A stretch of 44,309 nt of DNA, taken from Candidatus Shapirobacteria bacterium GW2011_GWF2_37_20 (GTDB lineage: Bacteria; Patescibacteriota; Microgenomatia; UBA12405). Positions within the stretch are counted from its first letter, which is position 1; each line of letters begins with the position of its first letter. Shown here in pieces: positions 280 to 432 of this stretch. The notes under the pieces were generated by a model, which did no database searches, had not been told where the DNA came from, and saw only the letters and a list, made by a program, of their open reading frames with translations. A program made the position numbers and the translations under genes. Location of the stretch: assembly GCA_000989305.1 (NCBI GenBank), contig LBTB01000013.1, forward strand, positions 1 to 44,309. Direction: 5' to 3'.

Positions 280-305
280 AAATCTCCCGAAAAACCGGGA
301 GATTT
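280..305 (-). terminator. Terminator-like hairpin (candidate attenuator) before tRNA-Trp
   Basis: A perfect 10-bp stem, AAATCTCCCG/CGGGAGATTT with a 6-nt loop, is followed on the minus strand by TTGTTTT and then the tRNA. On the plus strand it is followed by a T-rich tract at 309-315, so it could act both ways. Its minus-strand 5' arm (302-293) can instead pair over 10 bp, with one G-U, with 352-343 upstream. That is an attenuator-like arrangement. Confidence 0.7.
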
Positions 306-326
306 AATATTTTTTGAAAAATAGTT

Positions 327-398
327 TTATGCCATTAAAACGTCTCCCGATTGGGCTAGTGCGTTTCGCCAATAGAAAGAACATTTAATTAATGACAT
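327..398 (-). CDS. Putative 23-codon leader peptide upstream of tRNA-Trp
   Basis: The minus frame from ATG 398 encodes MSLIKCSFYW followed by RNALAQSGDVLMA and a TAA at 329-327. The ATG sits exactly 6 nt after a TAAGAT -10 box, the same spacing seen before many real genes here, so it would be read from a leaderless mRNA. Codons 8-10 are Phe-Tyr-Trp. Codons 17-19 (Ser-Gly-Asp) contain the segment that can pair with the 5' arm of the hairpin at 280-305. Translation of so short a frame is an inference; it may simply be the 5' leader of the tRNA transcript. Confidence 0.35.
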   Translation of the reverse strand: MSLIKCSFYWRNALAQSGDVLMA

Positions 399-404
399 TG
401 ATAT

Positions 405-432
405 ATCTTAACACTAAGCTATTGTGTGTCAA
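405..432 (-). promoter_or_regulatory. Promoter for the tRNA-Trp leader
   Basis: On the minus strand TTGACA (432-427), a 16-nt spacer and TAAGAT (410-405) match the sigma70-type consensus. The -35 is perfect and rare in this window. Predicted transcription start is near 398. Confidence 0.6.

Follow-up and report, generated by a model that had tools for sequence, protein, structure and literature searches.

A predicted trp-type transcription attenuator ahead of tRNA-Trp and trpS in Candidatus Shapirobacteria

In Escherichia coli, trpL controls biosynthesis genes; its leader has an SD site, and region 2 is located around the stop codon and beyond it. The pheST attenuator unit is not known to contain a tRNA gene. 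It puts an aminoacyl-tRNA synthetase operon of gammaproteobacteria under leader-peptide attenuation (PMC1262725). The closest precedent for the element described here is the leaderless one-Trp attenuator trpL2-trpS of Streptomyces lividans, which acts on trpS (PMC8079986); trpS attenuators in Streptomyces had been predicted earlier (PMC1262725). A 2010 survey states that leader-peptide systems were until then known only from Proteobacteria and Actinobacteria, and adds a hisS case in bacilli (PMC2965389). In the literature searched, we found no publication linking attenuation or leader peptides with Patescibacteria/CPR, which does not prove that none exists. Gene regulation in these bacteria is almost unknown, and their tiny genomes are often assumed to regulate little.

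Here we describe a leader unit from Candidatus Shapirobacteria that is very likely a ribosome-mediated transcription attenuator of the trp/his type, controlling a tRNA-Trp-(racemase)-trpS operon. All evidence is computational, without RNA data. Like E. coli trpL, the unit has Trp codons in the leader ORF, the predicted pairings 2:3 and 3:4, a predicted 1:2 pairing in the window and most relatives, and an intrinsic terminator; unlike in trpL, region 2 lies inside codons 16-19 and the unit stands ahead of (tRNA-Trp)-trpS. With the pheST attenuator it shares a synthetase operon under a leader peptide, although the amino acid there is Phe, not Trp. With S. lividans trpL2-trpS it shares a leaderless single-Trp peptide (MMTRTCTQLWRAA in S. 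lividans) that stands ahead of tryptophanyl-tRNA synthetase and is followed by hairpins. However, the S. lividans unit belongs to Actinobacteria, its trpS is monocistronic and no tRNA gene is part of it; no U-rich tail was found behind trpL2, and the peptides have no evident similarity past Trp. What sets the present unit apart is its lineage, the combination of a leaderless start with a region 2 located within the ORF, and a tRNA gene in first place.

The window, that is, the whole stretch of DNA analysed, comprises 44,309 nucleotides (contig LBTB01000013.1); the genome to which it belongs totals 809,864 bases over 17 contigs. The unit lies on its minus strand. A sigma-70-type promoter at 405-432 consists of TTGACA (432-427) and TAAGAT (410-405), separated by 16 nt, with a TG extension before TAAGAT. 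Six nucleotides after the -10 box, the ATG at 398 opens a 23-codon ORF (327-398, MSLIKCSFYWRNALAQSGDVLMA), in which codons 8-10 are Phe-Tyr-Trp. Trp-10 (TGG, 369-371) is the putative control codon. The position of the -10 box puts the expected transcription start on this ATG, hence the ORF is predicted to be leaderless; this start site is inferred, as no RNA ends have been mapped. Region 1 (368-381) can pair with region 2 (AATCGGGAGA, 343-352, codons 16-19), which can pair instead with region 3 (293-302), formed by bases of the terminator 5' arm and loop. The terminator hairpin, regions 3:4 (280-305), is followed by TTGTTTT to 273, and 7 nt beyond the stem lies a tRNA-Trp gene with a CCA anticodon (200-272). 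This tRNA has one mismatch in its anticodon stem, and its CCA end is incompletely encoded. Behind it starts an Asp/Glu-racemase-family gene (3-167), truncated by the contig end; a close homolog at locus L031 matches PF01177 and TIGR00035.

A sequence-only reading of the window had proposed the promoter, the short frame with Phe-Tyr-Trp, the terminator-like hairpin and the competing pairing of 352-343 with the hairpin's 5' arm. We recovered all of them where it had placed them. The competing pairing, with 302-293 as partner, has 10 bp including one G-U and an energy of -15.8 kcal/mol. It was also right that the window leader holds a single Trp codon. An overlapping frame of 26 amino acids (384-304) exists in the window, but was rejected since it is not conserved among homologs.

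Relatives were retrieved with the L25 protein of the window genome, and most are named Candidatus Shapirobacteria. BLAST with the leader unit also found relatives, and in several of these matches the similarity begins at the ATG. A first covariance model, for which eight sequences were used (L046 among them, from an L25 synteny search), added six more loci, giving 14 genomes of Shapirobacteria (Microgenomates) with the element. When a second model was made with all 14 and run on 374 sampled genomes of the class, it returned these same loci, all of one family. Because the filters of this search were strict and only a few candidates were scored in each genome, absence elsewhere remains unproven. 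No leader could be recognised in about half of the trpS-bearing genomes of the family, and a search of the trpS upstream regions of the remaining family genomes gave no convincing one. Apart from tRNA, an Rfam scan returned no family above threshold: Phe_leader reached 30.3 bits against a gathering threshold of 55 and His_leader 21.7 against 49, and there was no T-box match.

An extended -10 box, a leader ORF with Trp-10 and a terminator are common to the 14 genomes, and the -10-like box lies 6-10 nt upstream of the ATG in each of them. The ORF has exactly 23 codons, without indels and with frame and stop conserved, in 12 genomes; the other two stop after 14 and 20 codons. The distance from stop codon to terminator is variable. 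Trp occupies codon 10 in 14/14 genomes, despite divergent N-terminal codons, and in about half of them a second Trp codon is adjacent, so that the peptide often reads Trp-Trp. Stops are usual in the other two frames. The early-stopping leader of L066 (G016:C40, 1501-1630) ends just past Trp-Trp-Cys-Phe-Cys, and the usual C-terminal frame resumes after a shift; this reflects a variant leader or else an error in the sequence.

What follows the leader is less uniform. A tRNA-Trp gene stands behind it in 8 of the 14 genomes, and a ninth is cut at the contig end. At L006 the tRNA only seemed to be missing: the contig ends within the tRNA start, in apparent sequencing-adapter sequence. Five genomes (L005, L062, L066, L067 and L070) have the leader without a tRNA. 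L005 was first read as unlinked to tRNA-Trp; a racemase gene and trpS lie downstream there. At each of the ten loci where the contig is long enough, trpS lies downstream, either directly or after tRNA-Trp, a racemase-family gene, trpB (behind the leader in one genome) or other genes. Since trpS is present in 10/10 loci and five leaders lack a tRNA, the true target is the (tRNA-Trp)-trpS operon. The sequence-only reading had proposed trp-type attenuation of a tRNA gene. The relatives support the attenuation, whereas the constant target is trpS, and tRNA-Trp is a frequent but not obligatory part. In the window genome itself the racemase-family gene leaves the contig at its start, and the C-terminus of trpS lies at the far end of contig C8 (57716-57826 of 57828). 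It adjoins tRNA-Met, tRNA-Met and tRNA-Ile, the order found beside trpS in relatives. The most probable order of the window operon is thus leader, tRNA-Trp, racemase and trpS, the joining of the two contigs being inferred.

Could the leader respond to something other than scarcity of charged tRNA-Trp? It might sense free tryptophan, or the nascent peptide might stall the ribosome in a TnaC-like manner; one Trp is indeed invariant, and the seven closest leader peptides share an identical C-terminal AQSG. Beyond these seven, however, the C-terminal residues vary while the RNA pairing stays. Moreover, the downstream trpS and tRNA-Trp make charged tRNA and do not degrade Trp, and a twin unit in the window genome (see below) is laid out in the same way, with His codons. 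We consider sensing of free tryptophan or peptide-induced stalling very unlikely.

The attenuator reading depends on two alternative structures, and both can be drawn in all 14 genomes. Each genome has an intrinsic terminator of stem and T-rich tail, and in each of them region 2 can pair with the 5' arm and loop of this terminator. Of 11 tested pairs between regions 2 and 3, five form in every genome and three vary on both sides. Pair -2 occurs as TG, TA, AT and GC and pair -3 as AT, GC, CG and TA, and at one pair A-U is replaced by G-C in L005 and L007. In L005, L046 and L062 the antiterminator employs bases of the terminator loop, hence some of the covariation concerns the antiterminator alone. 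Cognate 2:3 duplexes average -15.4 kcal/mol against -12.6 (sd 0.5) for permuted ones, and none of 20,000 permutations was as good. This test takes no account of shared ancestry. Conservation of the frame, the Trp codon and the alternative pairing in homologs, together with covariation, was what the sequence-only reading had named as its check. The element meets these testable criteria of a trp-type attenuator and is predicted to work like one; its expression response is inferred.

To follow the folding of the window RNA, the ribosome was simulated by blocked stretches of assumed footprint size. Before region 4 has emerged, an RNA without ribosome forms 1:2 (probability 0.86 once the terminator 5' arm is out) and not 2:3 (0.00). 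A ribosome placed at Trp-10 brings 2:3 to 1.00 at the same stage. If it is placed at the stop codon instead, where it covers region 2 only in part, the terminator reaches 0.97. For the complete RNA with a stalled ribosome, equilibrium favours the terminator in the window and several relatives. Hence control must be kinetic and decided during transcription, as is generally supposed for attenuators. The protecting 1:2 pairing stands out in the window and in most relatives and is near zero in L062 and L067; in some relatives 2:3 forms even without a ribosome.

We propose the following mechanism. The RNA would begin at the ATG or a few nucleotides off, and a ribosome would load on the leaderless 23-codon ORF. 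When Trp-tRNA is scarce, the ribosome would halt at Trp codon 10 and mask region 1, leaving region 2 (codons 16-19) to pair with region 3 ahead of the synthesis of region 4. No terminator could then form, and the polymerase would continue into tRNA-Trp and trpS. When Trp-tRNA is plentiful, the ribosome would reach the stop codon, where it masks region 2 only partly, and the 3:4 terminator would form. Without translation, regions 1 and 2 would pair, leaving the terminator likewise free to form. Start site, translation, stalling and readthrough are inferred, and so is the purpose: more synthetase and an extra tRNA-Trp isodecoder when Trp-tRNA runs short. If correct, coupled transcription and translation would sense charged tRNA in Patescibacteria/CPR, through a precise and testable element.

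The same stretch could instead encode an independent small RNA, running from its own promoter to its own terminator, with the tRNA-Trp behind it by chance and served by another promoter. Its 126 nt (398-273) fold far more stably than shuffles (z = -5.55), giving one upstream hairpin in which region 2 is engaged and, apart from it, the terminator; in five relatives no tRNA follows the unit. Yet such an RNA would not account for a conserved reading frame and Trp codon with length changes mostly outside the ORF, for alternative pairings that covary, or for the presence of trpS in all downstream operons open to tracing. A promoter between 305 and 272 would have counted against the sequence-only reading, but we found nothing sigma-70-like there, between terminator and tRNA. 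We rejected a standalone small RNA on the conserved ORF and the linkage to trpS, and regard it as scarcely credible. This AT-rich sequence does frequently contain short ORFs and promoter- or terminator-like sites, but an ordinary intergenic region with ORF and terminator-arm repeat arising by chance is practically ruled out by the conservation of the unit with covariation in 14 genomes and by the rarity of such pairing in shuffles (equally strong arm pairing in 7 of 5000 dinucleotide shuffles of the window's upstream part).

An attenuated tRNA-Trp gene raises a question of its own. The window genome has 46 tRNA genes, among which CCA is, CAT aside, the only anticodon that occurs twice. The second tRNA-Trp gene lies at C4:51502-51576, hence the attenuated copy is not the cell's sole source of tRNA-Trp. 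Genes of this second, housekeeping type are present in 23 of 35 family genomes, with a full anticodon stem and U at position 33. Among eight attenuated copies, mismatches in the anticodon stem occur in four and C33 together with discriminator A in three; the acceptor stem is fully paired in seven. Judged from the genes alone, the attenuated tRNA-Trp is an additional, divergent isodecoder beside the housekeeping copy, and its use in translation is not shown. It is unusual for a tRNA gene to come first behind an attenuator when a housekeeping copy lies elsewhere in the genome, and one may ask what role an inducible divergent tRNA-Trp has.

Two loci add observations on this point. L201 (G009:C30, 282-5060) and L136 (G011:C8) have an attenuated operon whose tRNA-Trp carries G1-C72, A73 and C33. 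Both operons encode a protein without Pfam match (for L201 also without NCBIfam match) and, besides bacterial trpS, a second TrpRS nearest to archaeal/eukaryotic-type enzymes (best PDB match 3jxe, 1.8e-47). This TrpRS and the tRNA-Trp are possibly an orthogonal pair. Inside the Trp operon of G009, a second leader-like unit (L201:2463-2575) reads MNKLFFK...RNYFWREILW and is partly masked. A broader joint reading is speculative, and we doubt it somewhat more than we believe it: the attenuated tRNA-Trp would be specialised, made only under Trp-tRNA shortage or used outside ordinary translation; at least G009 and G011 would have orthogonal charging by the archaeal/eukaryote-type TrpRS together with the unassigned protein, under attenuator control; and leaderless leader-peptide attenuation would be general for amino-acid and synthetase genes in Microgenomates.

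The His twin of the window genome (G000:C1:11522-11730, minus strand; L130, L150) has the order tRNA-His, leader MIYLKFNLTHHTHTVVTNQRGVVLA, terminator, hisS. Its His-rich leader has an antiterminator/terminator pair of its own, and the ATG follows shortly after tRNA-His, so that tRNA 3' processing may make the leader leaderless. Similar His leaders lie upstream of hisS in L064, L068 and L132, with intervening genes in some, and a comparable arrangement was seen in L069, L129, L131 and L135. The His leaders before hisS paralogs of bacilli are comparable, as leaders of the cognate amino acid over a synthetase-type gene; unlike the twin, they belong to Firmicutes, and the accessible part of the survey does not report tRNA-His as part of the unit (PMC2965389).

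Weaker covariance-model matches in other Microgenomates families (L115, L116, L119-L122, L124-L126 and L128) have leader-like ORFs of other amino acids, judged by eye and without statistics. FSFYFYFYP and YFWFSFTF precede DAHP synthase, MDIKTKSFSFYFYFYPL precedes DAHP synthase and aroB, and a KKSKK ORF (MKINDFSKKSKKNLSPRGFVLA) lies upstream of class I LysRS, the second gene there. Recurring with His, Phe/Tyr and Lys codons, this layout can be used for predicting amino-acid regulons across an uncultured class. L119 has two leader-like ORFs in tandem. At L082 (G005:C23, 183-278), GGCGGGAG ... CTCCCGC form an alternative pairing between an apparent L20 end and an apparent pheS start, with no obvious leader peptide. 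In the window, a divergent ORF of 60 amino acids on the plus strand has TATAAT about 5 nt upstream of its ATG (463-478), which suggests that leaderless genes may be common in this genome.
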